Assembly: GCF_002563775.1 (NCBI RefSeq)
Contig: NZ_PDJO01000001.1
Span: 2,304,001-2,368,000 of the forward strand
Direction: 5' to 3'
Length of the DNA: 64,000 nt
Origin: Thioclava sp. ES.031
Lineage (GTDB): Bacteria > Pseudomonadota > Alphaproteobacteria > Rhodobacterales > Rhodobacteraceae
Shown here: positions 36,578-61,732 of the stretch, piece after piece
Layout: every line of letters starts with the position of its first letter
Position numbering within the stretch: the first letter of the stretch is position 1
The notes under the pieces: generated by a model
Database searches by the model: none
Told to the model about the DNA's origin: nothing
What the model saw: the letters and a program-made list of their open reading frames with translations, nothing else
Made by a program: the position numbers and the translations under genes

Positions 36578-37120
36578 ATAGCCCGCAGACCCCATAACGC
36601 CCCGCCGACCCGTGACACCGGCCCCCGAGTGAACGGCCGTATCCGCGCGAACGAGATTCGACTCATTGGCGCGGAAGGCGAGAATGTCGGCGTGGTTACC
36701 CCGCGCGAAGCGATGTCCATGGCCGAAGAGGCCGGGCTCGATCTCGTCGAGATCTCGCCCAACGCCAATCCGCCCGTCTGCAAGATCATGGATTTCGGCA
36801 AGTTCAAATACGAACAGCAAAAGCGCGAAGCCGAAGCCCGCAAGAAGCAGAAGACGATCGAAATCAAGGAAGTCAAATTCCGTCCGGGCACCGATGTGCA
36901 CGATTACGACGTCAAGATGCGCAACGTGGTGAAGTTCCTCGAGAACGGCGACAAGGTGAAGGTCACCCTGCGCTTCCGTGGTCGCGAGATGGCGCACCAG
37001 GATCTCGGTCTCGAGCTTCTCAACCGCGTCCGCACCGATGTGGGCGAACTGGGCAAGGTCGAGAACATGCCCAAGCTTGAAGGTCGCCAGATGGTGATGA
37101 TGATCGCCCCGGCGAAATAA
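36578..37120 (+). CDS. infC: translation initiation factor IF-3, ATA start codon
   Basis: A 180-residue protein of normal IF3 size. It has an N-terminal domain ([55 protein letters not shown]), a linker helix rich in Lys, and a C-terminal 30S-binding domain ([15 protein letters not shown]). The family start [10 protein letters not shown] aligns with ATA-GCC-CGC-AGA at 36578, preceded by AAGGA 8 nt upstream; no ATG, GTG or TTG fits. IF3 genes are known for non-canonical starts (AUU in E. coli) that allow autoregulation. Confidence 0.93.
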
Positions 37121-37146
37121 GCGCCCGAGCATCGCGAGATGGTTTG

Positions 37147-37174
37147 AACCCTCCCCTCACCGGGAGGGTTTTTT
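37147..37174 (+). terminator. infC terminator
   Basis: The perfect 9-bp stem AACCCTCCC / GGGAGGGTT with a 6-base loop is followed by TTTT, 27 bp after the infC stop. Confidence 0.9.
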
Positions 37175-37302
37175 CATGGCCCGTCGCGGGCGGTTCTCGC
37201 GTTTCGGGGGATGAAGAGATCAACCGATTGGCGTACTCGGCAGAACGCGCGACCCGGACCCGCGCCAATAGGCGGGTCCGGATCTTTGCGCATCAGGCGC
37301 GA

Positions 37303-38073
37303 TCAGCCATGGCCGGCGAGGATCGCGATCCGGACAGCCTCGGCATCGGCCGCAAGCGACTCGGCCGCAGCCCCCGTCACCGGCACCCCGAGGATTTGCG
37401 TGACCGCGATCACCGTATCGGTCGAGATCGGAACGGTCTTGTCCGACGCCGCGCCAAGGAAGATCGCGGCGAGCGTGTCAGCATCATTCGTCACGCCATC
37501 GCTCGAAAGCGGCGTCTTCCCATCGAGCGTCGCCTGCAGCAGCGCGAGGTTCTGCAGCGGCGAGTCGATGAAGGTCACGTTGTCCCAGTTCAGGGAGAGC
37601 TCCTCGATCGCGCTGTCGAGCGAGAGGTTGTAGAACGACACCATCTCGGGCGAGATCGACGCGAGCGCCTCTTCATAGGCCTGATCCAGCACATGTCCCG
37701 GCGACCGCGCGACGTTCAGACGCCCCAGCTCGACCTCCGGAATACCTTCCTGCGACCAGGTCGGCTTGCCGCCACCGGACGAAGAAGGCGCCCCGGCTTG
37801 CGGCCCCTTGCCCTCGGCATCGCCGCCGGGTCCGCCCTGACCTTGGCCTTGAGATTGCCCGCTCTGGGCGCCGCCGCTGCCCTGACCTTGACCGCCCTGG
37901 CTTCCGCTGCCGCTCCCTTGGCCGCCGCTCCCTTGGCCGCCGGTTCCTTGGGCATAGGCCGCGGAACTGAACGGACCGTTGATCGGTGCCTGCCATGCGA
38001 CGGCAAGCCCCAGTGCCGCTGCAATAGCGACGAGAGACGTGCGGGATTTACTCGTGAAAATTGAATTGCGCAT
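37303..38073 (-). CDS. secreted protein with Gly/Gln/Ser-rich linker
   Basis: 256 residues. A signal peptide ends near SSAAYAQG. A low-complexity region of GQGSGG-type repeats follows (about residues 44-100), then a soluble domain (VELGRLNVARSPGHVLDQAYEEAL, LSSDGVTNDADTLAAIFLGAASDKTVPIS). Of two ATGs, 38073 is preferred because AGGAGG is 8 nt upstream; the ATG at 38079 is only 2 nt from it. I do not recognise the family. The flexible linker suggests a surface or periplasmic protein. It stands alone on the minus strand. Confidence 0.78.
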   Translation of the reverse strand: MRNSIFTSKSRTSLVAIAAALGLAVAWQAPINGPFSSAAYAQGTGGQGSGGQGSGSGSQGGQGQGSGGAQSGQSQGQGQGGPGGDAEGKGPQAGAPSSSGGGKPTWSQEGIPEVELGRLNVARSPGHVLDQAYEEALASISPEMVSFYNLSLDSAIEELSLNWDNVTFIDSPLQNLALLQATLDGKTPLSSDGVTNDADTLAAIFLGAASDKTVPISTDTVIAVTQILGVPVTGAAAESLAADAEAVRIAILAGHG

Positions 38074-38302
38074 TTCCATTTCCTCCTAATTCATGACGCC
38101 TTGGCGTCGGCGCTAGGAGAACATGCGAGGCCGAAGCCTGCGTTGATTGTAGTCAATAAGATGTATGTTTTTGCAGGGCCCGCGCTCCGCCCGACAGGTC
38201 GCATCCTCGCCATCGGGACGCATTGGCACAGGGAACGGCACTCGCGCGAGCCGCGAGTTTCGCACAGCGCGCATAGCGGACCAAAACGCTTTGCGAACAC
38301 CC
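38074..38302. other. non-coding region, probable promoter of the secreted protein gene
   Basis: No credible gene in six frames. It includes an A/T-richer patch near 38140-38170 (TTGTAGTCAATAAGATGTATG) that may hold the promoter of the leftward secreted-protein gene. It ends at the U-tract side of the hairpin that terminates the candidate small RNA. Confidence 0.35.
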
Positions 38303-38429
38303 AAAAAAATTAAAGCGCCGCGGGAGGGAGACCCGCGGCGCATTTTGGGGAAAAGACGAGGGAGAACGTCTGTTCCTCTGGTCGGGTTCTGTGCGGTTTG
38401 GGCCGCGTCAGGGAGATCAAGAACCCGAT
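38303..38429 (-). ncRNA. candidate FnrL-dependent small RNA (~127 nt)
   Basis: Predicted start at 38429 from a class II FNR-type promoter, predicted end in the T tract of a strong hairpin. The 5' part can pair TCGGGTTCT with AGAACCCGA (perfect 9 bp, about 29-nt loop containing a GCGG/CCGC sub-hairpin). The 3' end is a perfect 10-bp stem GCGCCGCGGG / CCCGCGGCGC (38315-38324/38332-38341) with a UCUCCCU loop and a TTTAATTTTTTT tail. CU-rich loops (CUCCC) could pair with Shine-Dalgarno sequences. No conserved peptide is encoded. No RNA family was recognised; a computed prediction and expression data are missing. Confidence 0.45.
38311..38341 (-). terminator. strong hairpin terminator of the candidate small RNA
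   Basis: The perfect 10-bp GC stem with a 7-base loop is followed on the minus strand by TTTAATTTTTTT. On the plus strand the tail (ATTTTGGGG) is weaker, so the minus orientation is favoured. No protein gene on the minus strand ends near it. Confidence 0.8.
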
Positions 38430-38435
38430 GCACTT

Positions 38436-38477
38436 GTGATATGGGAGTATCCGTGTGCTGAACTTGACTTAGGTCAA
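38436..38477 (-). promoter_or_regulatory. FnrL-type box with matching -10 (class II promoter)
   Basis: TTGACTTAGGTCAA at 38464-38477 is a perfect TTGA-N6-TCAA dyad with TTGAC/GTCAA arms. Reading leftward, a class II start (box centre at -41.5) falls at 38429 (A) and puts TATCAC at the -10 (38436-38441). The rightward alternative would need ACAAAC as -10, which is poor. Confidence 0.55.
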
Positions 38478-38479
38478 AA

Positions 38480-38869
38480 CTCATCCGGTTTGAACTGCGA
38501 CAAACTGTTCCAATGGTCACGTTTCTGGCAGGGTCGGTGAGCCGCGTGTGAGGAAAACCTTACCAGAAGCCCGACGCCCCGCCTTCGGACCTGTCTTTTC
38601 GGGCTCTCAAGACACACGGCGCGATCACGCGAGCGAGTCGCCCCGACCGAACTTTCAGTGCCTTTTTCTTCCCGTCCCATCCGGTCTTGCACGCATGCCT
38701 CCGCGATTGCCCCGGTTTCGCCATTCCCACCGCGCGAAATCGCCCCGTTCGGAGGCGAAATCGGAACCCGGACAGGCACGGCCCGGAATCGGGTTACCGG
38801 CTATTGCGCGCTCTTTATTGCGCCGCCCCCTGCGTGCTAGTTGGAACGAGAGGCAGTTTCGAGATCGAC
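38480..38869. other. non-coding leader upstream of the glycosyltransferase gene
   Basis: About 390 bp with no credible gene. The open frame leading into the glycosyltransferase lacks family resemblance before residue MGKQRV. No confident promoter or operator for the downstream gene was seen. Confidence 0.35.
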
Positions 38870-41185
38870 ATGGGCAAGCAACGAGTGATCCGGCGCAGGA
38901 TGCAGGCGCAAACGGGCAAGCCCGCGCTGCTCGACGCGGTGGGCTGGACCGAGGACACCGATCTCGGGCCCCGCCACCATCTGCGCGCCTTCTTCGCCGC
39001 CCCCGCGCAGGCCGAGGATCTCAGCTTCGATGCCGTGCCCGGGGCTGCGCATCTGGCCGAGGGGCGCAATGTCGCGGGCGCGGTGATGGCGATCTACGAG
39101 CCGGCCGCGCCGGGACCGATCCAGGCCGCGATGAGCGGGCCGGACGGCCCCAGCCTGCGCGAGATCACCCCCGCCGCCCCCGATTGGGATATCTTCGAAG
39201 GCCGCAACTGCCTGTTCGGGCTGCGGCTGGAGGAAAGCGTCGAGACGGTGCTCGATTGGCTGAGCTGGCATCACGATCATCACGGCGCGACAGGCGCGGT
39301 GATCGTGAACCGCGCGCCAGAGGACAGCCCCGCAGGGTCCGGCGAGAGTTTCGCCGATGCGCTCGAGGCGGGCATGGCGCTGCGCGAGTTGGACCTGCCG
39401 GTCGCGATCCTTGAAAGCCCGCTGCCGCTCGGCAAGCCGGGGATGGGGCCGGAGAACCATGTCTTCCTCGCGCCCGACGCGCCCGGCAAGGACCGGATGG
39501 AGCCGCCTGCCCCCGATCCGCAGCGTAGCCCTCTGGGTCAGGCGCTGATCTTCGAGATCGCGAAATGGCGCTTCTTCGCGAAGGCGGCCTCGGTGCTGGT
39601 GCTCGACGTGACCGACCTTTTGGCCGAACGCGAGCCGGGCCAGCCCTCGGCTTTCGAGGCCACGCAAGAGGCCGAAAACGGCGTGATCCTTCTGGTGGGC
39701 CGCCGCATCTACCCTTGGCGCGTGCGCAACGATCAGCCTGCGCGCTTCCCCGACCATATCTGCCGCCAGTTCGACGCGCGGCGCGGTATCGCCCGCTGGG
39801 GCTGCGCGCCGCAAAAGGCCGGGCTGGAGAATACGTGGCGCCTCTTGCGCGTCAGCTATTGCCGCCCCGATCCGGGGCTGACCTACGGCTTCTGGCGCGC
39901 GATGGCGCTGAGGGTGCCGGGGACCTCGCCTGCGGAACTCGCGCCCAAGACCTCGCTGGTCGAGGACGAACGCCTGTTGCACCTGTCGCGTGACATCTGG
40001 GGGTTCAAGCCGGTGCGTCCGCCGGTCTCGAAGGTGAAGGACGCGCCCGCCCAAGCCGTCGAGGCAGGCCGCACCGCCATCGTCACCACGATGAAGAACG
40101 AAGGCCCCTTCATCCTCGAATGGATCGCCTATCACCGCGCGATCGGGGTGGATGATTTCCTCGTCTACACCAACGACTGCACCGACGGCACCGACACGAT
40201 GCTCGACCTGCTGCAGGCCAAGGGCTACGTCCAACACCGCGAGAACCCGTTCCGCACGATGGTCGACATGAAACCGCAGCACGCGGCGCTGGCGGCGGCG
40301 GAGACCGAGCCGGTGATCACCAAGGCGGGCTGGTCGATCTGCATGGATGTGGACGAGTTCATCAATGTGAAGATCGGCGACGGCACGCTGAAATCGCTGT
40401 ATCAGGCGATGGGCGAGGCGAACATGATCGCGCTCACCTGGCGGCTCTTCGGCAATGCGGATGTCCATGAATACGAGGACGGCTTCATCACCGGGCAATT
40501 CACCCGCTGCGCCCCCGAGATCGTGCGCAAGCCGCATCAGGCCTGGGGCTTCAAGACGCTGTTTCGCAATATCGCGCTCTACAAAAAGCTGGGCGTCCAT
40601 CGTCCCAAGGGGCTGAACCCGGACCTCTGGGATCAGGTGAACTGGCTCAACGGCTCGGGCCAGCCGATGCCGCGCGAGATGTTCCGCAATGGCTGGCGCT
40701 CGACGCTCGACACCTATGGCTATGACTGGGTGCAGCTTAACCATTACGCGGTGCGCTCGGCCGAGAGCTTCCTCGTGAAGCGCGACCGGGGCCGGGTGAA
40801 CCATGTCGATCGCGATCAGGGGCTGAATTACTGGTTCCGGATGAACCATAACGCGGTCGAGGATCGCTCGATCCAGCGGATGCTGCCCGCCGCCCGCGCC
40901 GAGTTCGACCGCATGATGGCCGATCCCGAGATCGCCGCCGCGCATCATCACTCCGTCGCCTGCCACCGCGCGAAGATCGAGGAACTGATGGCGCGCCCCG
41001 ATCAGTGCGAGTTCTACGAGACCCTGACCTCGGAGCGCTTCGAGGCGCTCTCGCGGATGCTGCATGTCTTCGGCTCGGCCGTGTTCAACACCGGCCCGCA
41101 TGTGATCCCCGAGGACCTTCACGCGCGCGATCTGCCCGACGACTTCTTCTTCACCGTCGAAGCGCCCGACGAGGCGACGCACTGA
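38870..41185 (+). CDS. glycosyltransferase with degenerate N-terminal and active C-terminal GT domains
   Basis: 771 residues. The C-terminal half (about 400-700) is a GT92/Glyco_tranf_2_4-like domain: VTTMKNEGPFILEWIAYHRAIG (from Lys409), ND-CTDGTD, DXD as DVDEF (493-497), and WRLFGNADVHEYEDG. The N-terminal half echoes the same fold: EESVETVLDWLSWHHDHHGATGAVIVNR and VLVLDVTDLL (246-251), with DVTD in place of DVDE, so it is probably inactive. Substrates are unknown; a surface glycan or EPS role is inferred. Start ATG 38870. The next genes encode an SDR-like protein and a paralogous GT. Confidence 0.85.
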   Translation: MGKQRVIRRRMQAQTGKPALLDAVGWTEDTDLGPRHHLRAFFAAPAQAEDLSFDAVPGAAHLAEGRNVAGAVMAIYEPAAPGPIQAAMSGPDGPSLREITPAAPDWDIFEGRNCLFGLRLEESVETVLDWLSWHHDHHGATGAVIVNRAPEDSPAGSGESFADALEAGMALRELDLPVAILESPLPLGKPGMGPENHVFLAPDAPGKDRMEPPAPDPQRSPLGQALIFEIAKWRFFAKAASVLVLDVTDLLAEREPGQPSAFEATQEAENGVILLVGRRIYPWRVRNDQPARFPDHICRQFDARRGIARWGCAPQKAGLENTWRLLRVSYCRPDPGLTYGFWRAMALRVPGTSPAELAPKTSLVEDERLLHLSRDIWGFKPVRPPVSKVKDAPAQAVEAGRTAIVTTMKNEGPFILEWIAYHRAIGVDDFLVYTNDCTDGTDTMLDLLQAKGYVQHRENPFRTMVDMKPQHAALAAAETEPVITKAGWSICMDVDEFINVKIGDGTLKSLYQAMGEANMIALTWRLFGNADVHEYEDGFITGQFTRCAPEIVRKPHQAWGFKTLFRNIALYKKLGVHRPKGLNPDLWDQVNWLNGSGQPMPREMFRNGWRSTLDTYGYDWVQLNHYAVRSAESFLVKRDRGRVNHVDRDQGLNYWFRMNHNAVEDRSIQRMLPAARAEFDRMMADPEIAAAHHHSVACHRAKIEELMARPDQCEFYETLTSERFEALSRMLHVFGSAVFNTGPHVIPEDLHARDLPDDFFFTVEAPDEATH

Positions 41186-61718: not shown

Positions 61719-61732
61719 TTGATAAATGTCAA
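61719..61732 (-). promoter_or_regulatory. FnrL box upstream of hemA
   Basis: TTGATAAATGTCAA fits TTGA-N6-TCAA. It lies inside the longer palindrome GACATTGATAAATGTC and its centre is about 70 bp before hemA. The class II -10 here (TAGGGC) is poor, so another promoter geometry is possible. R. sphaeroides hemA is known to respond to FnrL. Confidence 0.6.

Follow-up and report, generated by a model that had tools for sequence, protein, structure and literature searches.

A predicted small RNA with an FNR-type promoter and anti-Shine-Dalgarno loops in Thioclava sp. ES.031 and related Rhodobacteraceae

The minus strand of the window (the whole stretch of 64,000 nucleotides analysed, corresponding to 2304001-2368000 of the 4.02-Mb single-contig genome of Thioclava sp. 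ES.031) appears to encode a real, conserved small RNA (sRNA), which is very probably driven by FnrL and whose function we infer. The box, its spacing, the structure, the C-rich loops, and the terminator are conserved. In our preferred reading, to which we assign a probability of roughly three in four, the RNA would be an FnrL-activated, independently transcribed, trans-acting sRNA that represses translation by pairing with Shine-Dalgarno (SD) sequences. The core of the original prediction, a terminator-ended sRNA with a class II FNR-type promoter and SD-complementary loops, is supported by conservation and covariation among relatives, the sRNA itself being predicted. The features are collected in Table 1.

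Table 1 Features of the predicted sRNA and its promoter (window coordinates).
Feature	Position	Strand	Description
GTCGCA element	38496..38501	minus	24 bp before the FNR box; may be the half-site of a second activator
FNR/FnrL box	38464..38477	minus	TTGACCTAAGTCAA, perfect TTGA-N6-TCAA; centre at -41.5 from A38429; kept upstream of homologs
-10 element	38436..38441	minus	TATCAC, -12 to -7 from A38429
Predicted sRNA	38303..38429	minus	127 nt; start 38429, end within the T tract
Hairpin 1	38382..38428	minus	9-bp outer stem UCGGGUUCU/AGAACCCGA, inner GCGG/CCGC stem; contains GATCTCCCTGA (38408-38418)
Hairpin 2	38347..38378	minus	upper stem AGACG/CGTCT with loop TTCTCCCT (38359-38366); weak support for the lower stem
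Hairpin 3 (intrinsic terminator)	38315..38341	minus	10 pairs, all G-C; loop TCTCCCT (38325-38331)
Terminator tail	38303..38314	minus	TTTAATTTTTTT, read from sequence

A perfect FNR-type box centred 41.5 bp before the start, accompanied by a -10 element TATCAC, had been proposed, and both are in place (38477-38464 and 38441-38436). Such box spacing is the geometry of class II FNR promoters, and the sRNA promoter, as read from the sequence, is of this type. When promoters are aligned on the box, 18 of the 21 (two of the genus and 19 from other genera, 20 genera in all) have TA exactly at -12/-11, where 0.81 would be expected, and every other position has at most two. The dinucleotide is missing from -12/-11 in L055, L060, and L070. 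This set consists of the box-bearing loci after removal of the near-duplicates of the genus and of L059 and L028.

The window contains three perfect boxes, and dinucleotide shuffles give 0.36; the earlier estimate that a TTGA-N6-TCAA match would occur about once by chance in 64 kb was therefore overstated. Genome-wide, 48 perfect boxes are found versus 11 matches for the reversed pattern, and the box density of the genome is about 0.0013 per 110 bp. One of the three boxes in the window lies far from the sRNA, at 61719-61732 (TTGATAAATGTCAA, plus-strand reading). Upstream of the sRNA box is the GTCGCA element, which we take to be perhaps a RegA/PrrA-like half-site. It is found upstream of the box in most copies of the genus and in several other genera, and precedes the box in 16 of 27 promoters with a correct box (at -24 in 15 and at -23 in one), being missing there in the other 11.

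The genome has a single match over the cut-off of the FnrL profile (461 bits, cut-off 300), which identifies the FnrL gene. A perfect FNR box 36 bp upstream of the profile-matched part of fnrL (G000:C1:3197753-3197766) suggests that fnrL may be autoregulated. Because the box, its spacing, and fnrL are all present, we read the sRNA promoter as probably activated by FnrL, which would be the factor acting on the sRNA box. An unlikely alternative is that the promoter and the sRNA are real and that another Crp/Fnr regulator (Dnr/NnrR, FixK-like, or CrpK-like) acts on them in response to nitric oxide or another cue. The half-sites TTGA and TCAA are FNR-type, the genome encodes one true FnrL, and the box is retained in 20 genera, all of which argue against such a regulator. 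On the other hand, eight of the nine places in the genome that match the FnrL profile fall below the cut-off, and CrpK is reported to share the FnrL motif in R. sphaeroides (PMC4263372).

Homologs of the FnrL-type sRNA are detected by BLAST in 13 of 16 genomes of the same genus, its own included, with no BLAST match in the other three. The box is present in all 13 copies, in one of them at 7/8 positions. Across the family, BLAST matches at E<=0.01 occur in 18 of 295 genomes: two of the genus, seven with clear homologs from other genera (L009-L015), three whose loci were re-found by the covariance model (L016, L018, and L020, as L061, L053, and L058), and six that look like short chance matches. 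In each of the seven clear homologs, a perfect box lies no more than about 4 bp from where it is expected (query positions 24-37). The box is not what found them, because the search alignments start at query position 64 or later.

A covariance model of the RNA body, R1, which includes no promoter sequence, matches the sRNA itself at 38306-38432 with 140.9 bits, this sequence being part of the model. At E<=1e-3, R1 matches 36 of 394 family genomes, which does not show the sRNA to be general in the order. Thirty of these matches were viewed as loci with their flanks. A perfect upstream box is present in 20 of them, where the box density of the genome would give about 0.0013 per 110 bp; these include all eight that lie in genomes already known. 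In 12 of the remaining 22, a perfect box lies at most 110 nt upstream. Two further loci have a 7/8 box, one of them sensibly spaced: in L070 it is at -45, adjoining the expected place, and in L059 it is at -70, poorly spaced and beside an apparent plain terminator. By eye, nine of the 30 loci, L059 among them, resemble CcsR-type loci or terminators, and none of the nine has a perfect box; weak R1 matches are therefore unspecific. Searching for box, spacer, and terminator as a single pattern gives 15 of the 394 genomes, all of them among the R1 matches, and the reversed pattern gives none. In a class-wide search of 337 genomes, R1 returned the sRNA's own genome and otherwise only four terminators lacking a box, and blastn of plasmid records with 211 bases gave zero matches.

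By HMM search, the sRNA is flanked by a glycosyltransferase ORF upstream on the opposite strand and by a downstream ORF on the same strand (37303-38079) with no Pfam match, with infC (IF-3) farther on. In many relatives the sRNA is close to infC, and in several others OmpA- or VWA-type, XdhC-type, and MoeA-type genes are close by, as judged by eye and from shared ORF clusters; of these genes, infC of the window is the one named by HMM. By eye, the flanking genes vary between genera, and since the neighbours change while the promoter stays constant, a free-standing gene is favoured. The same-strand ORF downstream leaves room for the view that the RNA serves that gene as a 5' leader or attenuator under FNR regulation. 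We consider this very improbable: a strong terminator lies between the two, the ORF is preceded by its own perfect box (38143-38156), and the neighbourhood varies as described. Moreover, in five loci (two Thioclava records and three MAGs) R1 gives no match at E<=0.1 beside a relative of the ORF. The ORF is 81% identical to its relative in T. sediminum and 63% identical to that in T. atlantica over the best segments. Its box (TTGACTACAATCAA, minus strand) lies some 64 bp upstream of the ORF start and includes TACAAT, a possible -10 element, and FnrL might therefore repress there.

The minus-strand sequence 38303-38435 (133 nt) folds with -53 kcal/mol, compared with a mean of -33.5 for shuffled sequences (z -5.7; none of 200 shuffles as stable). 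The fold contains the 9-bp 5' stem-loop that had been predicted (UCGGGUUCU/AGAACCCGA), and the predicted RNA of about 127 nt indeed ends in a perfect 10-bp GC hairpin (38341-38315) followed by the tail TTTAATTTTTTT. Conservation of the region among relatives, with compensatory changes in the stems, had been named as a check on the prediction, and such changes are found. In an alignment of 15 homologs from which the promoter was excluded, both sides have changed at 10 of 30 pairs, and 91.3% of cells pair, versus at most 53.4% in slid alignments. The covariation score is 0.179; shuffles give 0.103, with none of 500 reaching the observed value, and slid alignments give no more than 0.095. Related sequences may beat shuffles even without structure, and the slid control answers part of that. 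Hairpin 1 holds most of the covariation, with both-sided changes in six of eight tested outer pairs. The terminator has both-sided changes in two of 10 pairs and zero broken cells. In hairpin 2, 79.2% of cells are paired and the lower stem is badly kept, pair 65-88 being formed in four of the 15 homologs.

The predicted sRNA is rich in CTCCC. Across 21 RNAs the motif occurs 75 times in the sense strand and never in the antisense strand; the downstream flanks have a single copy, and shuffles give 10.3. The sense count is partly built in because R1 includes the C-rich terminator loop. At least two copies are present in all 21 RNAs and at least three in 14; the copies in the RNA of the window are at positions 14, 65, 99, and 103. 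The strand bias agrees with the earlier proposal of UCUCCCU-type loops complementary to SD sequences, for which pairing is predicted.

The earlier view that the region lacks a fitting protein frame is largely correct, yet sense ORFs of at least 15 codons exist in 11 of the 15 homologs. In the window this is a TTG-started frame of about 36 codons. A TTG start at roughly the same position is shared by six of the 15 homologs, and all six belong to the same genus. This is what an mRNA for a small protein could look like. However, the other four homologs have no sense ORF of at least 15 codons, the six copies differ in their later frame and end, the length of 49 of the 61 internal gap runs is not divisible by three, and the substitutions preserve base pairs, which together make a coding role even more doubtful than a leader. 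Chance co-occurrence of a box and a terminator in a GC-rich genome can practically be dismissed: terminator-like patterns are as common as in shuffles (four in 5 kb versus 4.1 expected), but the stem of the sRNA pattern, with 10 pairs, is longer than those of the other three (5, 5, and 6), box and spacing are kept in 20 genera, and the stems covary, so that the comparative data already contradict it.

If the RNA is the FnrL-activated, SD-pairing sRNA that we favour, low oxygen would cause FnrL to bind the box at -41.5 and turn on the class II promoter. The transcript would terminate near 38303 and present C-rich CUCCC stretches in its three hairpins, which could pair with the purine-rich SD sequences of selected mRNAs, as in ar14/NfeR1 and CcsR. 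Hfq would probably bind at the U-rich tail, and translation of genes that are dispensable without oxygen would be repressed. We infer transcription, the role of FnrL, the part of Hfq, repression, and all targets.

Genome-wide, AGGGAGA-N4-9-ATG occurs at 72 sites, versus one for the reversed pattern, and 68 of the sites lead to distinct ORFs of at least 25 codons. These 72 are SD sites and are not shown to be targets. The ORFs behind them include msrA, msrB, folD, and genes for an rpoH-type sigma factor and a DUF2282 protein, as well as for pyruvate-carboxylase-like, EtfB-like, and phosphoglycerate-kinase-like proteins. The DUF2282, msrA, msrB, rpoH-type, and folD genes may be candidate targets and are offered as leads only. 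DUF2282 is tied to copper-binding bufferins. Both terms occur in PMC12452194. Among the ribosome-binding sites of the DUF2282 genes (L169-L182), those of three genomes (G254, G303, and G296) have TCAGGGAGA(TCA), which is complementary to loop 1 over 12 uninterrupted bases; in the window genome and its closest relatives the stretch is nine bases long. In the clade with an altered loop 1 the DUF2282 site differs too, but inconsistently. When loops were swapped at DUF2282, the best of the leads, for four genomes of the altered type, two sites favoured their own loop and two the other type, and co-evolution of site and loop 1 is therefore unsupported.

Two other approaches to targets were discarded. 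The sequence CAGGGAGATCA lies shortly upstream of an ATG in nine of the 16 genus genomes, at varied genes: a Crp/Fnr regulator in two (the window genome and a near-identical one) and DUF2282 in three. Since it precedes the ATG of different genes, the Crp/Fnr regulator was dropped as a conserved target. Whole-length duplex energies computed without accessibility are meaningless because long forced duplexes dominate them.

More broadly, and only tentatively, at less than even odds, the sRNA may represent a distinct branch of FNR-controlled anti-SD sRNAs in Rhodobacteraceae, in which the stems and body drift while the box, the -10 spacing, the CUCCC loops, and the terminator stay fixed. Such a branch might convert the oxygen signal, and perhaps a second redox signal received through GTCGCA, into repression of aerobic genes and of copper- and oxidant-defence genes such as those for the DUF2282 bufferin-type peptide, msrA/msrB, and the rpoH-type sigma factor. 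Should the sRNA function as we propose, it would add a post-transcriptional repressing arm to the FnrL response, and would illustrate how an anti-SD architecture known from general stress can be linked to oxygen through a promoter. In R. sphaeroides, FnrL ChIP-seq is reported to give 13 sites that do not lie upstream of an annotated gene; two of these 13 are at putative sRNA promoters (PMC4263372). For sites of this sort, a conserved FnrL-type sRNA offers a testable reading. The sRNA can be tested directly by means of the covariance model and the exact box spacing.

The original prediction suggested a counterpart of FnrS. This stands by analogy only, in that the window sRNA has an FNR-type promoter and would be expected to be induced anaerobically; FnrS is not among the eight Rfam matches at E<=5 in 37000-40000. 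Furthermore, the window sRNA has C-rich anti-SD hairpins, which FnrS is not known to have. FnrS is the FNR-activated sRNA of E. coli, whose role is described in PMC8139620 and PMC4263372.

The nearest architectures are instead ar14/NfeR1 and CcsR, which the original prediction did not mention. The best Rfam match in 37000-40000 is ar14 (RF02344), matched over its full length with 31.4 bits and E 0.0023, which misses the gathering cut-off of 58.8 bits. Among the relatives, 3 of 20 loci match ar14 at E<=1, the best with 31.7 bits. For ar14, three hairpins are reported whose unpaired regions hold anti-SD stretches (PMC10746234); the window sRNA likewise has three hairpins with the anti-SD motif unpaired. 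In contrast to ar14, it lacks the ultraconserved CCUCCUCCC motif and has only CUCCC(U), and it has an FNR-type promoter, whereas NfeR1 is reported to be regulated by LsrB and NtrC (PMC10746234). A search of the whole genome with ar14 gives five other places, the window sRNA not being among them. Four of the five make up a CcsR-type array (G000:C1:1345281-1346028, L002), which has CUCCUCCUCCCUGA-like loops and follows a DUF1127-type gene of 67 aa, named by eye, and the fifth is an orphan pair of anti-SD hairpins (G000:C1:3095978-3096073, L004). No perfect FNR box is present within the fetched loci around these five places.

The window sRNA shares stem-loops with C-rich anti-SD loops with CcsR1-4 (CIN1, 'cuckoo') of R. 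sphaeroides, and its loop 1, CUCCCUGA, is similar to the loops found in the CcsR-type array of its own genome, UCCUCCCUGA. CcsR RNAs are reported to share a transcript with a DUF1127 gene and to be processed from it (PMC10253847), whereas the window sRNA has its own FNR-type promoter and no DUF1127 neighbour; in place of the RpoHI/RpoHII promoter of CcsR, its sequence shows class II FNR-type spacing. R1 scores 16.9 bits on the CcsR-type array and gives no match at E<=0.1 on the orphan copy. The window sRNA thus appears ar14/CcsR-like in design and, by the tests made, not a member of either.

Several sRNAs of R. sphaeroides, tied to oxygen regulators in a related genus, can be set beside the window sRNA, by description only: PcrZ, reported to depend on PrrA and FnrL (PMC8139620), and RSs0019 and RSs2461, at which FnrL ChIP sites are reported (PMC4263372). 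On the same footing, a screen in P. denitrificans reports sRNAs conserved in Rhodobacteraceae (PMC5107571). A literature search covering titles and abstract openings, with most subscription papers outside it, found no FnrL-controlled ar14/CcsR-type sRNA described. The window sRNA joins two known kinds, the FNR-controlled sRNAs and the sRNAs with multiple anti-SD motifs, and is novel within the searchable literature.
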